Shown here in pieces: positions 711 through 56,236 of a stretch of DNA of 56,236 nt. The translations under genes were made by a program, and so were the position numbers. The notes below the pieces were generated by a model. That model saw only the letters and a program-made list of their open reading frames with translations, did no database searches and was not told the origin of the DNA. The first letter of the stretch is position 1, and each line of letters opens with the position of its first letter. Source of the DNA: Thiomargarita sp. (GTDB taxonomy: Bacteria > Pseudomonadota > Gammaproteobacteria > Beggiatoales > Beggiatoaceae); assembly GCA_020721005.1 (NCBI GenBank), contig DYNP01000011.1:1-56236 (forward strand). Direction: 5' to 3'.

Positions 711-1052
711 GTTCATGCTCCTTAAATTAGTTAAATACAATTGTGGTCATTGAGTGGCAGGGAATCAGCCTGATAAAATTATATCCTCCTTAATGTAGTA
801 ATTAAATGGGGGTTGGGTTTTGGATCGTCTTCTACTTCCTCCTATAAAAAAGAGGGTTTGAGAATGATTTCTTTTACCCTGAAAAAAGAAAATCGTACGT
901 GAAAAATTTTCAGTTTTCAGACCTAAAGGAACTTGACGGGTTAATTTTGTTAAATTGAATAGACTAAAGGTATTAAATTTAAGATAAGCGGAACATTTTG
1001 TTCAAAAAAAGGGGGATTTTTGGGGGGAAGAAAAAATGGGGGGAATTTTAGA

Positions 1053-1080
1053 AATTAGCACTGAGGAAGTAGTGCTAATT
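1053..1080. terminator. Perfect 10-bp stem-loop, terminator-like
   Basis: AATTAGCACT and AGTGCTAATT pair perfectly around an 8-base loop. There is no clear run of T on either side and no gene ends here, so its role is uncertain. It may be part of the surrounding repeat cluster. Confidence 0.4.
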
Positions 1081-1100
1081 GTAGGACGATAATTGTAGGA

Positions 1101-1126
1101 CGCAATAGCTTTAGCGTATTGCGCGC
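1101..1126. repeat. GGCGCAAT-family palindrome, diverged copy
   Basis: CGCAATAGCTTTAGCGTATTGCG is an imperfect palindrome matching the two better copies at 34338-34366 and 34464-34490. It is an intergenic short palindromic repeat. Confidence 0.7.
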
Positions 1127-1153
1127 GATATTAGACTTTTTGTAAGATACGTT

Positions 1154-1244
1154 GGAGTGGAGGCTTTAGCCGGCCAGCAGTCGGCACTTGCAATTTGTGT
1201 ATGTGGGGTGATGTTTACGGCTGGCCGGCTAAAGCCTCCACTCC
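1154..1244. repeat. 91-bp palindromic element, copy 1
   Basis: Arms of 25 bp (1154-1178 and 1220-1244) are perfect inverted repeats beginning GGAGTGGAGGCTTTAGCCGG. The 41-base core contains CTTGCAATTTGTGTATGTGG and is not palindromic, so orientation can be read. The same core appears reverse-complemented in the copies at 9985, 5654 and 56077. It looks like a REP- or MITE-type non-autonomous element, or a structured RNA unit. Confidence 0.85.
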
Positions 1245-1322
1245 AATCTACCGGCTAAGGCCTCAACTCCAACTTACCGGTTAAAGCCTCCACTCCAATC
1301 TACCGGCTAAGGCCTCGACTCC
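1245..1322. repeat. Three tandem 26-bp units derived from the element arm
   Basis: Three consecutive 26-bp units of the form AATCTACCGGCTAAGGCCTC plus AACTCC follow copy 1 directly. Each is one arm of the 91-bp element plus a short linker, so the arm itself has been amplified. Confidence 0.8.
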
Positions 1323-1412
1323 AACTTACCTTCTAGATCCTATACTCTAAAAGGGATTTTCCTTTTATTTTTTCCCATCTCATCTTTATCGCATCATTTA
1401 CTTTTGCAAGAG
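1323..1412. repeat. Element tail with right-end sequence TTTACTTTTGCAAGAG
   Basis: The segment from TACCTTCTAG through CTATACTCTAAA, a T-rich stretch and ATCTTTATCGCATCATTTAC to TTTTGCAAGAG also follows the repeat clusters at 5885-5950 and, truncated, at 10078-10112. It appears to be the right end of a larger composite repeat. Confidence 0.65.
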
Positions 1413-1491
1413 GTCTATTAATTGATGTGTTACTGCATGGTCTACGAGAACTTTTTTTATGCTGCGTTCAGCTATATCTGATTTTGATGGG

Positions 1492-2106
1492 TTATTTTCC
1501 TAAAATAGTGATTAGGACTCCTAATAATTCTTCTAAATCTGAAGGGACTCTAAATAAATTTAGGTCTTGAGTAATTTGTTTTGCGGTCCGTTCTAAAATT
1601 CCAAATCGCCAAATTTCACCTGTGGAAACAGCACCATATAGATGAGTGCTGGTGCTGTCTGTCCATTGATCTAAAGCAATCAATTCAACGGCTAATTGCA
1701 TAAAACCTCTTTCTAAATCGCTGTTTTTTGCTTCGATGACCAGGAGGTTTTGTTGAGATTGTAGGTAATAATCTAATGTTCCTCGCAATTGATTGCTGAT
1801 ATTCAGTGGAAATTCGACTTTGATTTTAGCTTGGGTGTAGTCTATCAATTCTAATAAAATGGGGGCAATTAAAAATTCCCGTTTTGCGGTTTCATTTGTT
1901 AGGCTAATGTGGGGAAGATTTCGGGTAAGCCGCACCTTCAGTGTCATGAAATTATTGTTGAGTGGTTCAAGAGGATGTGGCAGTGTTATTTGTTGTTTAC
2001 TGAATGAAAAACCAAAATATGCCAAGATATCTTCTTGATAATCGACCAGTTTGAAATAGTCTGAGAAACTGTAGATTGTATTTTCGACCAAAAGCGGGGG
2101 TTTCAT
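1492..2106 (-). CDS. PD-(D/E)XK nuclease-like protein of unknown role
   Basis: The 204-residue protein has no signal or membrane segment. Around residues 108-130 it reads LRGTLDYYLQSQQNLLVIEA followed by KNSDLERG, the D...(I/V)EAK pattern of the PD-(D/E)XK fold, with D, E and K in catalytic spacing. Similar small orphan proteins are common in filamentous bacteria and are usually unannotated. It stands alone, flanked by repeat clusters, and is transcribed in the same direction as argG upstream. Whether it cleaves nucleic acid is not known. Confidence 0.6.
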   Translation of the reverse strand: MKPPLLVENTIYSFSDYFKLVDYQEDILAYFGFSFSKQQITLPHPLEPLNNNFMTLKVRLTRNLPHISLTNETAKREFLIAPILLELIDYTQAKIKVEFPLNISNQLRGTLDYYLQSQQNLLVIEAKNSDLERGFMQLAVELIALDQWTDSTSTHLYGAVSTGEIWRFGILERTAKQITQDLNLFRVPSDLEELLGVLITILGK

Positions 2107-2160
2107 TCAGTGCGCCAGTTGATTGGTGAGAAATGGTTGAATGGATTTTTTGATAGGCCA

Positions 2161-2187
2161 ACTCCAACCCGTTGGTTAAGTTGGAGT
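2161..2187. repeat. Degenerate arm-like inverted repeat
   Basis: ACTCCAAC and GTTGGAGT face each other across 11 bases between argG and the nuclease-like gene. The sequence resembles worn arms of the GGAGTGG repeat family and could also act as a weak terminator for argG. Confidence 0.35.
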
Positions 2188-2274
2188 GGGGCGCATTGCT
2201 TTGCTCTATCGGTTATAAATAGGGGTCGACTAAGCGTTAGGGACTTATGCCTTAGCCAGATACTGAGCGGGAAT

Positions 2275-3486
2275 TTATGTTTTTAAACGGGCAGCAATTC
2301 TCATTCTCAAGGCATTGAGTTTGATGAAGCCTTCAGCGTCTTGTTGGTGGTAAGCACCTCCATCTTCTTCAAAGGTGGCAATGCGAGGGTCAAAGAGGCT
2401 GTGGGTGGGAGATTGGCGTCCGGTGATGATGACATTGCCTTTGTACAGTTTGACGCGGACTTTGCCGTTGACTGTGGTTTGTGAACTGTCGATCAGTTGT
2501 TGTAGGAGTTGTCGTTCGGGACTCCACCAGTAGCCATTGTAAACGAGACTGGCATAGCGGGGCATGAGTTCGTCTTTCAGGTGGGCGACTTCTCGGTCCA
2601 TGGTCAGCGATTCCATGGCTCGATGGGCTTTGAGTAAAATGGTGCCGCCCGGGGTTTCGTAACAGCCACGGGATTTCATACCAACGTAGCGGTTTTCAAC
2701 CAGATCGAGTCGCCCTATCCCATGTTCCCCGCCCAGTTTGTTGAGTTGAGTGAGCACTTGTGCAGGGGTCATGGTTTGTCCGTTAATGGCAGTGATATCG
2801 CCTTTGGTAAATTCCAGTTCAAGTTCGATGGGTCGGTCTGGGGCTTGTTCCGGGGAGGTTGTCCAGCGCCACATGTTTTCTTCTGGGGCTTGCCAGGGGT
2901 CTTCTAGGTTCATTCCCTCATATGAAATATGCAGGAGATTGGCATCCATGGAATAGGGGGATTGTTGTCCCTTTTTGAGCATGTCGACGGGAATGTCATG
3001 TTGTTGGGCATAGGCAAGTAGTTTTTCTCGGGAGGTAAGGTCCCATTCTCGCCAGGGGGCAATGATTTTAATATCTGGTTTGAGGGCATAGGCACCGAGT
3101 TCAAAGCGCACTTGGTCATTTCCCTTTCCTGTGGCGCCGTGGGCAATGGCATCGGCGCCAGTGGCTATGGCAATATCGACTAAGTGTTTGGCGATGAGGG
3201 GACGGGCAATGGAGGTGCCCAGTAAATATTCCCCTTCATATACGGTATTGGCACGGAAAAGGGGGAAGACATACTCCCGTACAAATTCTTCTCGCAGGTC
3301 TCGAATGATGATTTCTCGCACGCCTAATTTTTGGGCTTTCAAACGGGCGGGTTCTAATTCTTCGCCTTGACCAATGTCAGCAGTGAAAGTGACGACTTCG
3401 CATTGGTATTTGTCTTGTAGCCATTTGAGAATGATTGAGGTGTCTAACCCTCCAGAGTAAGCTAATACTACTTTTTTGACAGACAT
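2275..3486 (-). CDS. argG: Argininosuccinate synthase
   Basis: ArgG joins citrulline and aspartate with ATP to give argininosuccinate, the penultimate step of arginine synthesis, in the cytosol. The 403-residue length fits the short bacterial subfamily. The ATP pyrophosphatase loop SGGLDTS is at residues 11-17, and the substrate-binding [14 protein letters not shown] segment is near residues 116-129. The C-terminal [13 protein letters not shown] region is intact. The start ATG gives the usual [16 protein letters not shown] beginning. argH is not in the window. The gene stands alone between a nuclease-like gene and a CZB gene on the same strand. Confidence 0.97.
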
Positions 3487-3621
3487 AGTGATTCCTAAGT
3501 GGTCAATTTTTAGTGTTGGGAGGTAAAATGGGTATTGATAAAGATCAGATAAATGAATGAGTTATTGGGGACCTGTTGGGAGGAAAGGTCCACAGTGAAA
3601 TACGGGATAGAGAGAGTTGAG

Positions 3622-3987
3622 TTATTTTTCTTTGCCAACGACGGTATCATGCCAAGCGATGATGTTTTGCACGAGTTGTTGAGAGATGTGTTCAAAATGA
3701 CTGCCATATTCCAGTGAGGAAAGGGCTCGTTGTTGGTGTCCTTGTTGGGCAAGTTCGATGATTTTATCAGCTTCTTGATGGAGTTGGCCGTGGTAATCTA
3801 CGACTAAATAGTAATGATCGTATTCTTTTAATTCTTCGGCATTGGTAATTAGCCATTTGCCCAATTCACATTGTTCTAATCCTAAGTTAGAAAAATTTTT
3901 TCCAGTTTGAACGGCTTCATGCAAGCGTTTTTTCCAGGCGGTGTGTTTGACGATGGCCATGTAAATGTGATTGGCAATTTTACTCAT
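3622..3987 (-). CDS. Stand-alone CZB (chemoreceptor zinc-binding) domain protein
   Basis: The 121-residue protein is little more than a CZB domain. The domain opens with HTAWK (His15), has the hallmark CELGKW (Cys40) and carries downstream His residues at 66, 70 and 97-100, giving the 3-His/1-Cys zinc ligand set. CZB domains normally sit on chemoreceptors and diguanylate cyclases and sense zinc or hypochlorite-type oxidants. Here no partner domain is attached, so it may regulate a partner protein or serve as a soluble sensor. It is followed on the same strand by argG, with a 135-bp gap. Confidence 0.8.
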   Translation of the reverse strand: MSKIANHIYMAIVKHTAWKKRLHEAVQTGKNFSNLGLEQCELGKWLITNAEELKEYDHYYLVVDYHGQLHQEADKIIELAQQGHQQRALSSLEYGSHFEHISQQLVQNIIAWHDTVVGKEK

Positions 3988-4067
3988 GAGAACTTGGCCT
4001 CTTTGGCAAGTGGGGAGTGATTGGAGGATAAATTCATTGGCAGGACAATGGGAAGTTAGCAGTTAGG

Positions 4068-5108
4068 TTATTGGAGAAGGGAGGCTAGGTTGGTGGAGTT
4101 GGGATGTTCTACATAACCTTTTTCAGTTACAATCACATCGATCAGTTCAGCGGGGGTGATGTCAAATGCAGGGTTCCAGGCTTTGATTCCCATAGGGGCT
4201 ATGGGGTGTCCATGGAGTTGAGTCACTTCATGGGGAGAACGTTCTTCAATGATGATGGAATTGCCGCTGGCAAGTGTACTGTCGAAGGTAGTGGTGGGGG
4301 CAACGACCATCATTTTTACGTGATGGTAACGCGCTAAGACCGCCAGGCTGTAAGTCCCAATTTTATTGGCAACATCACCGTTTGCGGTAATTCGATCGGC
4401 ACCCACAATGATCCAATCAATTAGACCGTTGCGCATGAGCATGGCGGCGGCACTGTCCGCGATTAAAACACAGGGGATGCCCTCCTCTTTTAATTCCCAA
4501 GCGGTGAGTCTGGCGCCTTGCAACCAAGGTCGGGTTTCGTCAGCATAAACCTGTTGCAGTTTACCATGGGCAAAAGCAGTGCGAATTACCCCCAAAGCAG
4601 TCCCATAACCACCTGTAGCCAGAGCACCGGCATTGCAATGAGTCAGCACTCGACAAGGGTTAGGAAGTAAATTTGCGCCAAGTTCGCCCATGCGATAGTT
4701 GGCTTGAATATCTTCCTCATGAATAAGACGGGCTTCCGCCAACAGTTCAGGCACTGGATTGCCGGTAATTTGGGGAAAAAGGGCCCGCATGCGATTAATT
4801 GCATAGGTAAGATTGACGGCAGTGGGTCTGGCTTTTGAGAGAGTGTGCAGATCGGTTTCAATGTGAGCCATCCAGTCAGTGGGTCGTTGTACGTAAGCTG
4901 ATCGAGCAGCGAGAACCACTCCATAGGCTGCAGTGATACCGATAGCAGGGGCACCACGTACTACCATATCTTGGATAGCTTTGGTGACTTCTTGTACGGT
5001 TTGCAGTTTGAGAATTTCTTGGCGTAAAGGCAGTTGTCGTTGATCCAAAAGGTGTAGGCAGTCATGTTGCCAATCCACAGCTCGAATGGTGTCGGGTAGG
5101 TGTTTCAT
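4068..5108 (-). CDS. mtnA: Methylthioribose-1-phosphate isomerase
   Basis: MtnA isomerises 5-methylthioribose 1-phosphate to methylthioribulose 1-phosphate in the methionine salvage pathway. The 346-residue protein has RGAPAIGITAAYG (51-63), the catalytic cysteine motif THCNAGALATGGYGT (Cys158) and the catalytic aspartate motif VGADRITANGDVANK (Asp238), matching the family Cys/Asp pair. The paralogous eIF2B-like proteins lack this Cys-Asp combination. No other salvage gene is adjacent, so the downstream enzymes must be encoded elsewhere. Its upstream side abuts the large repeat insertion. Confidence 0.95.
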   Translation of the reverse strand: MKHLPDTIRAVDWQHDCLHLLDQRQLPLRQEILKLQTVQEVTKAIQDMVVRGAPAIGITAAYGVVLAARSAYVQRPTDWMAHIETDLHTLSKARPTAVNLTYAINRMRALFPQITGNPVPELLAEARLIHEEDIQANYRMGELGANLLPNPCRVLTHCNAGALATGGYGTALGVIRTAFAHGKLQQVYADETRPWLQGARLTAWELKEEGIPCVLIADSAAAMLMRNGLIDWIIVGADRITANGDVANKIGTYSLAVLARYHHVKMMVVAPTTTFDSTLASGNSIIIEERSPHEVTQLHGHPIAPMGIKAWNPAFDITPAELIDVIVTEKGYVEHPNSTNLASLLQ

Positions 5109-5153
5109 GATTTTCTAAAGGTGAAAGAGAGGAGAGTATTTTTAGGGGGTGCT

Positions 5154-5218
5154 GCATTTCCGATCGCGTTGTTGAGCCTCTTGAGAATTGGCTTTACAAC
5201 CACTGGTCACGTCTATAG
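5154..5218 (-). pseudogene. Duplicated 3'-end fragment of the neighbouring membrane-protein gene
   Basis: These 65 bases match 5948-6012, the 3' end of the gene at 5936-6460, with 5 differences. Read on the minus strand the fragment encodes ...SQEAQQRDRKCSTP and then a stop. The intact gene instead ends ...EAQQRDWKCKSK, with its last codons supplied by repeat sequence. The fragment may therefore preserve the ancestral end of that gene. It has no start and is not expected to be expressed as a protein. Confidence 0.75.
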
Positions 5219-5292
5219 TAGATCTCTTGCAAAAGTATGCGATAATGAAAACGATCATGAAAAAATGAGAGTTGCCCCTCAGTTAAGAGACG

Positions 5293-5684
5293 TTGGAGTG
5301 GAGGCTTTAGCCGGTCAGCCGTAGGTCCTTGGAGTGGAGGCTTTAGCCGGCCAGCGGCAGGCCCTTGGAATGGAGGCTTTAGCCGGCCAGCGGCAGGCCC
5401 TTGGAATGGAGGCTTTAGCCGGCCAGCGGTAGGTCCTTGGAATGGAGGCTTTAGCCGGCCAGCGGCAGGCCCTTGGAATGGAGGCTTTAGCCGGCCAGCG
5501 GCAGGCCCTTGGAATGGAGGCTTTAGCCGGTCAGCGGTAGGTCCTTGGAATGGAGGCTTTAGCCGGTCAGCGGTAGGTCCTTGGACTAGAGGTTTAGCCG
5601 GTCAGTGGTAGGTCCTTGGACTAGAGGCTTTAGCCGGCCAGCGGTAGGTCCTTGGAGTGGAGGTTTAGCCGGTCAGTGGTAGGC
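5293..5684. repeat. 36-bp tandem array, 11 units
   Basis: Units start at 5293, 5329, 5365, 5401, 5437, 5473, 5509, 5545, 5581, 5616 and 5652. Unit 9 is 35 bp and unit 11 runs into the core of a 91-bp element. The unit is TTGGAATGGAGGCTTTAGCC followed by GGCCAGCGGCAGGCCC, with a recurrent variant ending GGTAGGTCC. There are no spacers between units, so this is not a CRISPR array. Two minus-strand frames stay open through most units but have no start codon. Confidence 0.92.
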
Positions 5685-5743
5685 ATTACCCCATATACAC
5701 AAATTGCAAGGGCCGACCGCTTACCGGCTAAAGCCTCTACCCC
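5654..5743. repeat. 91-bp palindromic element family, copy 2 (90 bp)
   Basis: Unit 11 of the array grades into a full element: left arm GGAGTGGAGGTTTAGCCGG, core with CATATACACAAATTGCAAGG, right arm CCGGCTAAAGCCTCTACCCC. Core orientation is opposite to copy 1 at 1154 and the same as copies 3 and 4. Confidence 0.8.
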
Positions 5744-5898
5744 AACGTATCATCTAAACCTCCACTCCAATGTATCATCTAAACCTCCACTCCGGCTAAA
5801 GCCTCTAATCCAGGATCCGACCGCTTACCGGCTAAAGCCTCCACTCCAATGTATCATCTAAACCTCCACTCCGGCTAAAGTCTCCACTCCAACGGAGA
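5744..5898. repeat. Inverted arm repeats after the 36-bp array
   Basis: Several copies of CCGGCTAAAGCCTCCACTCC-type arms, partly degenerate and separated by AATGTATCATCTAAACCTCC, point opposite to the 36-bp units. The block from GGATCCGACCGCTTACCGGC onward repeats part of element copy 2. Together with the array this forms a very large potential hairpin. Confidence 0.75.
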
Positions 5899-5935
5899 TT
5901 TCCCTTTTGTTTTTTCGTATTTCATCTTTATCGCA

Positions 5936-6460
5936 TCATTTACTTTTGCATTTCCAATCGCGTTGTTGAGCCTCTTGAGGATTGGCTTCACAACCACTGG
6001 TCACTTCTATGGTTAAGGTAGAGCTATCTCCGGCTAAAAGGCGCATAACCTGTGGACAAAGAACTTTGGCTGGGATATTCCAATAACCTTGATGTTTTTC
6101 GCTGTAACGGGGTTCACAGCTTTTCTTTTGAGTATTGACTGTGATATAGTAACCCGCCTTTTCTTTGTAGAAACCATTGCGTTTGTCAAATAACTTGGGA
6201 TTTGGAGTGTTCAAAAAAGTTTGTAGGTCGGAAGTGGATTTGGAAACTGGACCAGTTAGCCAAGAGGTCCACTGCTCAGCACCCTGGGCAATACCAAAGA
6301 ACATACTGCCGGCTTTTTCTGGATTTAGGTACCAAAGTATGAAGTATAGACCTATGATCACCAGCCAAATGTGAGTCAATTTGAAGGAGTGAATGGTTTC
6401 AAAAAAGCGCAAACCTTTTCGAGATGAATTGCTATTTGGCGTGTTATGATGAGCCGACAT
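5936..6460 (-). CDS. Small single-pass membrane protein of unknown function
   Basis: The 174-residue protein is not recognised. A short polar N-terminus is followed by one transmembrane helix at about residues 29-46. The remaining ~125 residues would face the periplasm and contain cysteines near residues 114, 134 and 156-170, possibly disulfide-bonded. The last residues (KSK and the stop) come from repeat sequence TTTACTTTTGCA, so the C-terminus appears to have been altered by the insertion downstream. A second copy of the gene end lies at 5154-5218. It diverges from rpmB across an 81-bp gap. Confidence 0.6.
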   Translation of the reverse strand: MSAHHNTPNSNSSRKGLRFFETIHSFKLTHIWLVIIGLYFILWYLNPEKAGSMFFGIAQGAEQWTSWLTGPVSKSTSDLQTFLNTPNPKLFDKRNGFYKEKAGYYITVNTQKKSCEPRYSEKHQGYWNIPAKVLCPQVMRLLAGDSSTLTIEVTSGCEANPQEAQQRDWKCKSK

Positions 6461-6541
6461 GTTTTTTGCAGTTAATCGGTTGACTGAATAGTCATTTTTT
6501 GTTAAAAATGGCCCCTTCTATAGTGAATCAAAGGATAAGTT

Positions 6542-9436: not shown

Positions 9437-9962
9437 CCCTATACTAAAAGATTCTGTTCCCGCTTACATTGGTCTCGGCAGCAACCTCCACCATCCCATT
9501 CAACAAATCCAACAAGCTTTGCACCGACTTGCCGACCTGCCTCACACCCAACTCCACTGCCACTCCTCACCTTACCAAAGCCAACCTTTAGGGAACTTGG
9601 ACCAACCAGACTACATCAATGCCTGTGCCGTTTTACACACCCAACTCTCTCCCTATCAACTGCTGGCACAACTCCAACTCATTGAAAATCAACAAGGTCG
9701 TCAACGCACTGCCGAAAAATGGGCCGCCCGCACCCTGGATCTCGATCTCCTTTTGTACGCCCAATTCACCATTCAAACTGCCCAATTAACTTTACCGCAT
9801 CCTGGTCTATACACTCGACACTTTGTCCTATATCCCTTGTATGAATGCCAACCAGAACTGATATTGCCCAATGGCCAGCCCCTTCGCACCTGGTTAACCA
9901 CTGTATCCCATGATGGATTGACACGACTCAACAGAGTGGAGGCTTTAGCCGGTAAGCCGTAG
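9420..9962 (+). CDS. folK: HPPK (2-amino-4-hydroxy-6-hydroxymethyldihydropteridine pyrophosphokinase) with repeat-derived C-terminus
   Basis: FolK transfers pyrophosphate from ATP to the pterin in folate synthesis. The 180-residue protein shows AYIGLGSNLHHP near the start and the signature KWAARTLDLDLLLY, with the metal-binding D-L-D. It overlaps pcnB, a common gammaproteobacterial pair. The last eight codons, VEALAGKP and the stop TAG, are encoded by the arm of the interspersed GGAGTGGAGGCTTTAGCCGG repeat, so an element has replaced or extended the original C-terminus. The catalytic core is upstream and should be unaffected. Confidence 0.93.
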   Translation: MPRLPNPILKDSVPAYIGLGSNLHHPIQQIQQALHRLADLPHTQLHCHSSPYQSQPLGNLDQPDYINACAVLHTQLSPYQLLAQLQLIENQQGRQRTAEKWAARTLDLDLLLYAQFTIQTAQLTLPHPGLYTRHFVLYPLYECQPELILPNGQPLRTWLTTVSHDGLTRLNRVEALAGKP

Positions 9963-10026
9963 GCATCACCCCACACGACTCAATGGAGTGGAGGCTTTAG
10001 CCGGTAAGCCGTAGGCATCACCCCAC
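9923..10026. repeat. 52-bp tandem duplication overlapping the folK end
   Basis: ACGACTCAACAGAGTGGAGG and what follows up to CACCCCAC is repeated from 9975 as ACGACTCAATGGAGTGGAGG, a 52-bp period. The first copy encodes the folK C-terminus. The second begins a complete 91-bp element. Confidence 0.85.
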
Positions 10027-10075
10027 ATACACAAATTGCAAGGGCCGACTGCTGGCCGGCTAAAGCCTCCACTCC
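9985..10075. repeat. 91-bp palindromic element, copy 3
   Basis: Arms 9985-10004 and 10056-10075 are perfect 20-bp inverted repeats. The core, reverse-complemented, matches copy 1 at nearly every position. A tail fragment (TACCTTCTAGAGACTATACT, then AAAGGAGACTTTCCTTTT) follows to about 10112 and runs up to the stop codon of the next, leftward gene. Confidence 0.88.
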
Positions 10076-10121
10076 AACCTACCTTCTAGAGACTATACTC
10101 TAAAGGAGACTTTCCTTTTGG

Positions 10122-42435: not shown

Positions 42436-43722
42436 ATGACCACTTCTTCCTACTTTGCAGAAGCCCAACAGTATATCCCAGGGGGGGTCAATTCCCCAGT
42501 CCGTGCTTTTAAGGGAGTTGGAGGAGACCCCGTTTTTATACAACGAGCTGCCGGAGCTTACTTTTATGACCCAGAAGATCGAGCGTATATCGACTACGTG
42601 GGCTCTTGGGGATGTATGATTGTTGGGCATGCCCATCCCACGGTGATCGAAGCCGTACAAAAAGCGGCCACTCGGGGCTTAAGCTTTGGCGCCCCCACAT
42701 TGCTGGAGACTCAGTTGGCGAAGCGCATCTGTGAACTGATACCCTCCATAGATCTGGTGCGAATGGTCAATTCGGGAACAGAAGCGACGATGAGTGCCAT
42801 TCGTTTGGCAAGAGGTTATACAGGGCGCGATAAAATTGTGAAATTTACGGGCTGTTACCATGGCCATGCGGATTCCCTGTTGGTAAAAGCGGGTTCCGGC
42901 GTGCTAACTTTGGGCCTGCCTAACAGTCCCGGCGTGCCGGCAGTCTTGGCTCAGCACACCTTAAGTTTAAATTATAATGACTTGGCGCAGGTGAGGGCAG
43001 TATTTTCAGAGATGGGAGAGCAGATTGCAGCCATCATCGTGGAACCTGTGGCAGGGAATATGAACTGTGTACCCCCCTTGCCCGATTTTTTACCCGGATT
43101 ACGAACTATTTGTGATGAATATGGGACGGTATTAATTTTTGACGAGGTGATGACTGGATTTCGCGTCGCTTTGGGGGGAGCGCAGTCCTATTACCAGGTC
43201 ACTCCTGATTTGACCACCCTGGGTAAAGTGATTGGGGGAGGCATGCCAGTGGGCGCCTTCGGGGGTAAACGATCGATCATGGAATATTGTGCACCTTTGG
43301 GACCGGTGTATCAAGCGGGGACCCTGTCTGGAAATCCTATCGCTATGACGGCTGGTTTGGCGACTTTGTCAGTGCTCAGTGATCCCCATTTCTTTGTGGA
43401 ATTGAGCGTCAAAACTGATAATTTTGTCAAAGATTTAATGGCCTTAGGCAAATCCGCGGGAATTCCCCTGTTGGGAACCTCAGTGGGTGGAATGTTTGGA
43501 TTATTTTTTACTGAGGCTCACACAGTTGAAAATTTTGAACAAGTCAGTCAATGTAATGTGGAGCGTTTCAAACGCTTCTTTCACGGCATGCTGCAACGAG
43601 GAGTTTATTTAGCCCCTTCAGCATTTGAAGCCGGTTTTATGTCTGCAGCCCATGATGCACAAGTGATTGAATTGACTTTACAAGCTGCCGAAGCGGCCTT
43701 GGCTGAATTGTGGCTGGAGTAG
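42436..43722 (+). CDS. hemL: Glutamate-1-semialdehyde 2,1-aminomutase
   Basis: HemL converts glutamate 1-semialdehyde to 5-aminolevulinate in C5-pathway heme synthesis. From ATG 42436 (GAGGA upstream) it has 428 residues, the family norm; an earlier frame start at 42370 inside thiE is rejected. Landmarks are [60 protein letters not shown] and the PLP lysine in [14 protein letters not shown]. The final codons and stop (TGGCTGGAGTAG) fall in a copy of the interspersed GGAGT-GAGGCTTTAGCCGG repeat, so a repeat now terminates the gene. Confidence 0.97.
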
Positions 43723-43829
43723 AGGCTTTAGCCGGTGGAGTCGAGGCTTTAGCCGGTTTGGAGTCTAGCCGGTTTGGAGTCTGTCTAGGCTTTAGCCGGC
43801 AAGGTAGCTGGAGTCAAGGTTTTAGATTG
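43714..43829. repeat. Degenerate arm-repeat cluster at the hemL end
   Basis: At least four partial arms of the 91-bp element family occur (GGAGTAGAGGCTTTAGCCGG, GGAGTCGAGGCTTTAGCCGG and shortened TTTGGAGTCTAGCCGG forms). No complete element or core is present. The first arm overlaps the hemL stop codon. Confidence 0.75.
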
Positions 43830-56022: not shown

Positions 56023-56074
56023 TTGGAGTGGAGGCTTTAGCCGGTATGTTGGAGTGGAGGCTTTAGCCGGTACG
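56023..56074. repeat. Two 26-bp arm units
   Basis: TTGGAGTGGAGGCTTTAGCC followed by GGTATG and then GGTACG repeats at 56023 and 56049 with a 26-bp period, leading into element copy 4. The same period, in the opposite orientation, is seen at 1245-1322. Confidence 0.85.
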
Positions 56075-56076
56075 TT

Positions 56077-56167
56077 GGAGTGGAGGCTTTAGCCGGTCAG
56101 CCGTAGGCATCATCCCACATACATGAATTGTAAGGACCGACCACTGACCGGCTAAAGCCTCCAGTCC
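56077..56167. repeat. 91-bp palindromic element, copy 4
   Basis: Arms GGAGTGGAGGCTTTAGCCGG and CCGGCTAAAGCCTCCAGTCC flank a core with CATCCCACATACATGAATTG. It is exactly 91 bp, in the same orientation as copies 2 and 3. Confidence 0.87.
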
Positions 56168-56236
56168 AATGTACCTTCACAAATTGTAAGGACCGACCAC
56201 TGACCGGCTAAAGCCTCCAGTCCAATGTACCTTCAC
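56125..56236. repeat. 56-bp tandem repeat at the window edge
   Basis: The right half of copy 4 plus GTACCTTCAC (from GAATTGTAAGGACCGACCAC) is repeated from 56181 with a 56-bp period. The array may continue outside the window. Confidence 0.85.

Follow-up and report, generated by a model that had tools for sequence, protein, structure and literature searches.

A minisatellite-bearing IS5-type MITE family in a Thiomargarita genome and a truncated copy lying between two copies of a gene's 3′ end

Judged by its ends, the segment at positions 5220-5950 (minus strand) of the window, the whole 56,236-nucleotide stretch of Thiomargarita sp. DNA that we analyzed, is a right-truncated, non-coding copy of a high-copy IS5-type MITE family, these bounds being the best that matches to the family ends provide. 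It lies between two copies of a piece of a small membrane protein gene, an arrangement that the initial annotation had read as an insertion with a 65-bp target duplication. We consider it most probable (roughly 0.7) that the MITE inserted normally and that a local duplication by template switching then gave the order flank, truncated element, flank, and on this reading the apparently exotic 65-bp target duplication is explained by a family with ordinary 3-bp duplications and by a rearrangement that came afterwards.

The 19-nt end motif of the family, allowing up to two mismatches, occurs at 225 places (118 + 107) in the 4.05-Mb genome, and the same motif read backwards, which served as a control, at 0 places in the same genome, so these occurrences are not due to chance. 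Members were sampled from about the first 100 of the 225 motif places and from 40 and 42 end-sequence matches, and they therefore represent a part of the family, at loci chosen by end-motif matches. Of 70 raw end pairs, six were set aside because they were no longer than 150 bp or lay in the window; the remaining 64 facing-end pairs from the fetched loci, of which a few are questionable with 4 edits at an end, together with two members in the window make up the 66 that were examined. Their median length is 323.5 bp, with a range of 196-1094 whose upper value comes from a doubtful pair, 54 of the 66 combine one end A (TAGACCTCTTGCAAAAGTAAATGATGCGAT...) with one end B (TAGACCTCTTGCAAAAGTATGCGATCATG...), and all 66 contain matches to the core GGAGTGGAGGCTTTAGCCGG, from 1 to 18 each. 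TRF detected a tandem array in 50/66 members, in some with only about 2 copies, and its period was often 26, 36 or 43-45. The 36-bp array of the window thus belongs to the element, as had been suspected when the element was first said to have carried the repeats in. The second window member spans 1133-1416 (strand unassigned), has a degenerate left end (AGACTTTTTG) and carries ATT on both sides (1130-1132 and 1417-1419), its bounds and the ATT having been set by eye; the recurrence of the right end initially noted at 1372-1420 lies at 1399-1417 and is part of this member.

Three duplicated gene copies (L028:545-818, L028:3396-3785 and L206:1224-1761) harbor one shared insertion. Their left flanks are identical at 299/300 positions between two copies, with the third nearly identical in the alignment, and their right flanks at 278/300 and 285/300, and the elements measure 274, 390 and 538 bp. 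Since the insertion is shared and the lengths are unequal, the arrays seem, from these alignments, to grow or shrink in place. The core repeat itself is present in 1228 copies in the window's genome and in 1523 copies in G007, a genome of another genus of the same family, and it is absent from the 34 other genomes searched. The 19-nt end motif was not found in G007, and so the core repeat may predate the ends. The G007 loci that we read consist of simple hairpins of 57-91 bp and arrays, with no common outer ends recognized. Within the window, a core hairpin without family ends lies at 9921-10077, inside the 3′ end of a reading frame of 180 aa that resembles folK and whose protein ends in ..NRVEALAGKP; a 52-bp piece made of gene and core is tandemly duplicated there. 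Further core arrays, in which no family ends are recognizable, were seen at 56023-56236 and 43715-43782. Phage and plasmid records gave no match.

Read on the minus strand, the window element consists of a cut end A, inverted cores, arrays and a complete end B, i.e., on the plus strand, of end B, the 36-bp array, a centre, the inverted cores and end A. End B is matched at 5219-5243 and 5252-5301 (96 and 98% identity) and end A at 5950-5884 (95.5% over 67 nt). The array (5293-5683, plus strand) comprises 10.9 copies of a unit containing the core, with 93% matches, and is complementary to the inverted cores (5716-5892, minus strand), which, by core matches and RNA folding, form the other arm of a predicted hairpin. 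The gene-strand RNA of the element has a predicted fold of -374 kcal/mol, compared to -250.7 (sd 6.41) for 20 shuffles, and no Rfam family matched window positions 900-6500 at the gathering threshold.

The facing inverted ends described initially are present, as TAGATCTCTTGCAAAAGTA on the left (5219-5237) and TACTTTTGCA on the right (5941-5950, plus strand), and they differ in completeness. The left terminal inverted repeat on the end B side, AGATCTCTTGCAAAAGT (5220-5236, plus strand), is intact and is preceded by AGT (5217-5219), which, from the sequence and the family rule given below, is the left half of an expected 3-bp ANT target duplication. The right end breaks off at TTTTGCA, without the family's final 8 bases (AGAGGTCT) and without the right target duplication: no matching AGT adjoins the element, the right repeat copy having GGT at 6011-6013, and the right partner would have been lost together with the truncated end. 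Beyond TTTTGCA the sequence continues as TGCATTTCC...: here the gene piece that precedes the insertion point is present once more, and this second copy passes unbroken into the gene for a 174-aa protein. The bases TGCA (5947-5950) belong both to the element, at its end, and to the duplicated gene piece, at its start, and constitute a microhomology at the junction.

An element of this family has the form AGACC...GGTCT and is accompanied by a 3-bp ANT duplication. Among the 58 members in which neither end departs by more than 3 edits, identical 3-bp flanks were found in 43 (AAT in 23, ATT in 18 and AGT in 2) and non-identical ones in 15, and shuffling the pairing of the flanks of these members gave a mean of 19.7 identical pairs and a maximum of 29 in 2000. 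A TA duplication, as in IS630-like elements, was rejected, since the next base outside is equal on both sides, giving ANT. An ANT duplication is the mark of ISL2, a subgroup within IS5. The layout of the window at first sight resembles a true 65-bp target-site duplication made by a transposase, as initially proposed; we give this practically no credence, given the identical 3-bp ANT flanks of 43/58 members, the truncated right end of the window copy, and the fact that the sole long flanking repeat among the 64 complete members (L217, described below) is a pre-existing repeat that shows the usual AAT. The right end being cut and fused, via TGCA, to a copied flank, the 65 bp would stem from an event different from, or later than, the insertion.

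An exact scan of named genomes, from which records of the window's own genome may be missing, located the 19-nt end in at least 99 stretches; of the 80 matches listed, 33 are from Psychrobacter, and the other carriers among them include many cyanobacteria, with two matches from Candidatus Halobeggiatoa sp. HSG11. A genome of the same family as the window's (G033) is that of HSG11, two of its contigs being identical in every letter over 1.6 kb. Eleven complete elements of 915-916 bp have the same ends, at least 10 of them in Psychrobacter, and identical ANT flanks were seen by eye in 7 of the 11. In one complete IS, two frames match HTH_Tnp_4 and DDE_Tnp_4 above the cut-offs, with NCBIfam IS5_4 below its cut-off. 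Profile searches of the window's genome gave 0 matches to DDE_Tnp_4 and 0 to HTH_Tnp_4, and a 110-aa transposase query matched nothing there, compared to 68 matches in another genome (G021). The search for full IS elements with these ends, which the initial annotation had recommended, was thus successful in other genomes and found no autonomous partner in the window's own, a draft assembly that may miss a collapsed multi-copy IS. An autonomous partner in the same genome is not strictly required for a MITE. As in MITEs derived from IS5 elements, the terminal repeats are common to an autonomous IS, the target duplication is short and fixed (at the level of the family), and the members are short and high in copy number; the original designation as a non-autonomous mobile element is supported. 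A REPIN moved by a RAYT was also considered and rejected: three Y1_Tnp matches were found in the window's genome and G007, and their three loci of ~3.3 kb contain no core at up to 5 mismatches.

The gene at this site encodes the 174-aa protein mentioned above and is now an open reading frame at 5936-6460 (minus strand), whose KSK codons and stop are contributed by the element; its product had no Pfam match at E 0.001. The next gene on the same strand (4068-5108, an open reading frame of 346 aa) is presumably a methylthioribose-1-phosphate isomerase gene, and the element, together with one copy of the gene piece, is located between the two. Alignment of the direct repeat, 5153-5219 versus 5947-6013, gave 62/67 identical positions, in agreement with the 65-bp piece first reported (5154-5218 and 5948-6012, 5 differences). 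By this alignment and translation, the copy at 5947-6013 (minus strand) is the live one and forms the present 3′ end of the gene, and that at 5153-5219 (minus strand), which is continuous with the downstream DNA and reads TIDVTSGCKANSQEAQQRDRKCSTP followed by a stop, would be a relic of the old 3′ end. The ending of the gene has changed as initially described, from ..KCSTP in the downstream copy to ..KCKSK in the live gene, the KSK and the stop being encoded by the end of the element.

Four of the five differences between the gene pieces alter an amino acid (E/D, E/K, P/S and W/R), so that one of the copies looks unconstrained. At the site where the live copy has W and the downstream copy R, one of three orthologues (from G007) has W, the other two have F and none has R, which suggests that the downstream copy is the relic. 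Both C157 and C171, which are invariant in the 4 aligned sequences, lie inside the duplicated piece, and so insertion alone would have removed both from the protein. The three orthologues came from a search of 56 other genomes, none of the same genus, so that the ancestral locus, with its empty site, was not seen. Neither finding that the initial annotation had expected to speak against an insertion was obtained, as 0/3 orthologues end in KSK and other elements with these termini abound (225 ends in the genome); the ancestral STP-type ending that it had hoped for was likewise found in 0/3. The five differences also bear on the assembly, since the window's genome is a draft of 133 contigs in which some family ends lie near contig ends, and one may envisage an artefact that joined an occupied to an empty allele. 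This strikes us as very improbable: differences at 5/67 positions, with 4 amino-acid changes, are too many for the alleles of one strain, and the layout recurs at two other loci.

This recurrence emerged from a test of single ends, in which we asked, for 66 entries, whether the 35 nt outside each end recur beyond the element; some of the entries are ends of complete members or chance matches, others repeat one another because their loci overlap, and one was unscorable. The 35-nt flank recurred at 30-35/35 positions in 5 entries, representing 3 loci, and at 21/35 or fewer in the other 60 scorable entries. These loci, the window (L006), C11:86k (L161) and C44:157k (L008), each have a truncated element between two flank copies, one of which directly adjoins the intact end. 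L161 is a mirror image of the window, its right end being intact and its left end cut in the core, and it has flank copies on both sides and one further repetition. At L008 (1501-2185), a complete element is followed by two 200-bp units, each made of a cut element and 43 bp of flank and 96.5-98.25% identical, which directly demonstrates tandem duplication after a normal insertion. The elements of L161 and L008 are cut deep within, and that of the window is short by only 8 bases. Further duplications of flank plus element were observed at L025, L266 and L274, those of L025 (6589-7300) being 192-bp units of core and non-element DNA, at least 3 in tandem. At L024, 48 bp of flank are copied without touching the intact end, and at L169 (1032-1287) an insert that contains short palindromes (TGGAGTGCAAACCTTGGTTTGCAC) lies between two copies of a 28-bp flank, with a family member adjoining.

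In the control, 128 flanks of complete members, a score above 22 was obtained only in L168, whose flank is itself core, and in L217. At L217 (1203-1745) the element lies within an older repeat of the CCTCCTTACTAAGGAGGGGAGTGAAATAAG type and is bordered left and right by AAT; it has a 53-bp flanking repeat and a neighboring unit that, by eye, resembles an empty site. Such a landing lends some plausibility to the idea that the 65-bp piece of the window was duplicated in tandem first and that the element inserted at the junction later. Under this order of events the right end should be intact and a 3-bp duplication present, and the window has neither; the order also demands that the truncation stop by chance at the very TGCA that starts the repeat; we regard it as quite improbable.

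More economical would be a one-ended insertion, in which the left end was joined at AGT and the trimmed right end annealed to the intact strand at the TGCA located 65 bp away, priming copying past the insertion point. A single event would then suffice for flank, truncated element and flank, and it would fit an intact end at a family-type ANT site, a trimmed end at a microhomology, the absence of the right duplication and a flank copy that extends exactly to the insertion point. We nevertheless hold it to be unlikely, as the unit of L008 stands beside a complete element at the same site and needs a duplication after normal insertion, and as much of the element is missing from L161 and L008. Because L008 has units duplicated after a normal insertion, template switching is favored for the window as well, against which stands a junction match of only 4 bases. 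By sequence alone, a template switch, a duplication followed by excision, and a one-ended insertion are not separable.

We infer the following sequence of steps, including the precise route of repair. An IS5-type MITE (AGACCTCTTGCAAAAGT...ACTTTTGCAAGAGGTCT), with asymmetric subterminal ends A and B and a palindromic core with a minisatellite, would have inserted at AGT in the 3′ part of the small membrane protein gene and disrupted it, the intact left end suggesting that the usual 3-bp duplication was made. Synthesis or repair at the long hairpin would then have used the TGCA match to switch template, leaving TTTTGCA close to the element's right end and resuming at TGCATTTCC, which lies 65 bp ahead of the insertion site, and copying would have run on through an unoccupied copy of the gene; alternatively, a tandem duplication of flank and element may later have lost the complete element. 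The second flank copy would have become the gene's new 3′ end, with the KSK codons and the stop taken from the element, and the switch would have given the gene back its two invariant cysteines and exchanged STP for KSK.

A broader proposal, which we put forward tentatively and regard as doubtful, is that long-hairpin MITEs repeatedly trigger microhomology switches that duplicate host DNA, and that in the window a switch onto the empty sister chromosome rescued the cut gene and gave it a new C-terminal tag. As the copied flanks of L161 and L008 are located at or just beyond the end of the neighboring reading frame, such a rescue would not be general and would apply to the window only. If true, it would show how a cell keeps a gene after a mobile element has landed in it. 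The recurring flank duplications provide a natural set for the study of template switching at long hairpins, and the family adds a high-copy, minisatellite-bearing MITE, for which no transposase was found, in a relative of Beggiatoa.

Among known systems, the Psychrobacter elements of 915-916 bp resemble the MITE in their terminal repeat and ANT flanks, the comparison being one of ends, and they carry a two-frame IS5-type transposase, of which searches of the window's genome turned up none. In Candidatus Thiomargarita nelsonii, MITEs are abundant, some of them forming hairpins and interrupting genes, but they are reported to have other ends, with direct repeats of 10 bp and inverted repeats of 19 bp, or TATA ends, and the word 'tandem' is absent from the main text of that report (PMC4853749). 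Pieces of the core or end sequences were not found in the literature searched, which consisted of open-licence papers. A close parallel is BrickBuilt, a MITE of Porphyromonas gingivalis which reportedly has trapped a 23-nt tandem repeat of variable copy number, has a differing leader and tail and IS5-type ends (GAGACCTTCGCA and similar, compared with ISNme1 GAGACCTTTGCAAAA), and is present in 19 copies, always intergenic, with a duplication length that is inconsistent in the few copies with both ends (PMC4596501). Both are MITEs with IS5-type ends and a tandem repeat inside, and the likeness drawn here is one of layout. Unlike BrickBuilt, the window family has 225 ends, cores inverted in both arms and a regular 3-bp ANT duplication, and of the 132 element sides checked, 8 are entered by a reading frame of at least 90 codons. 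BrickBuilt thus makes MITEs with IS5-type ends and a minisatellite a known kind, and what is new here is an added family and an informative rearrangement.
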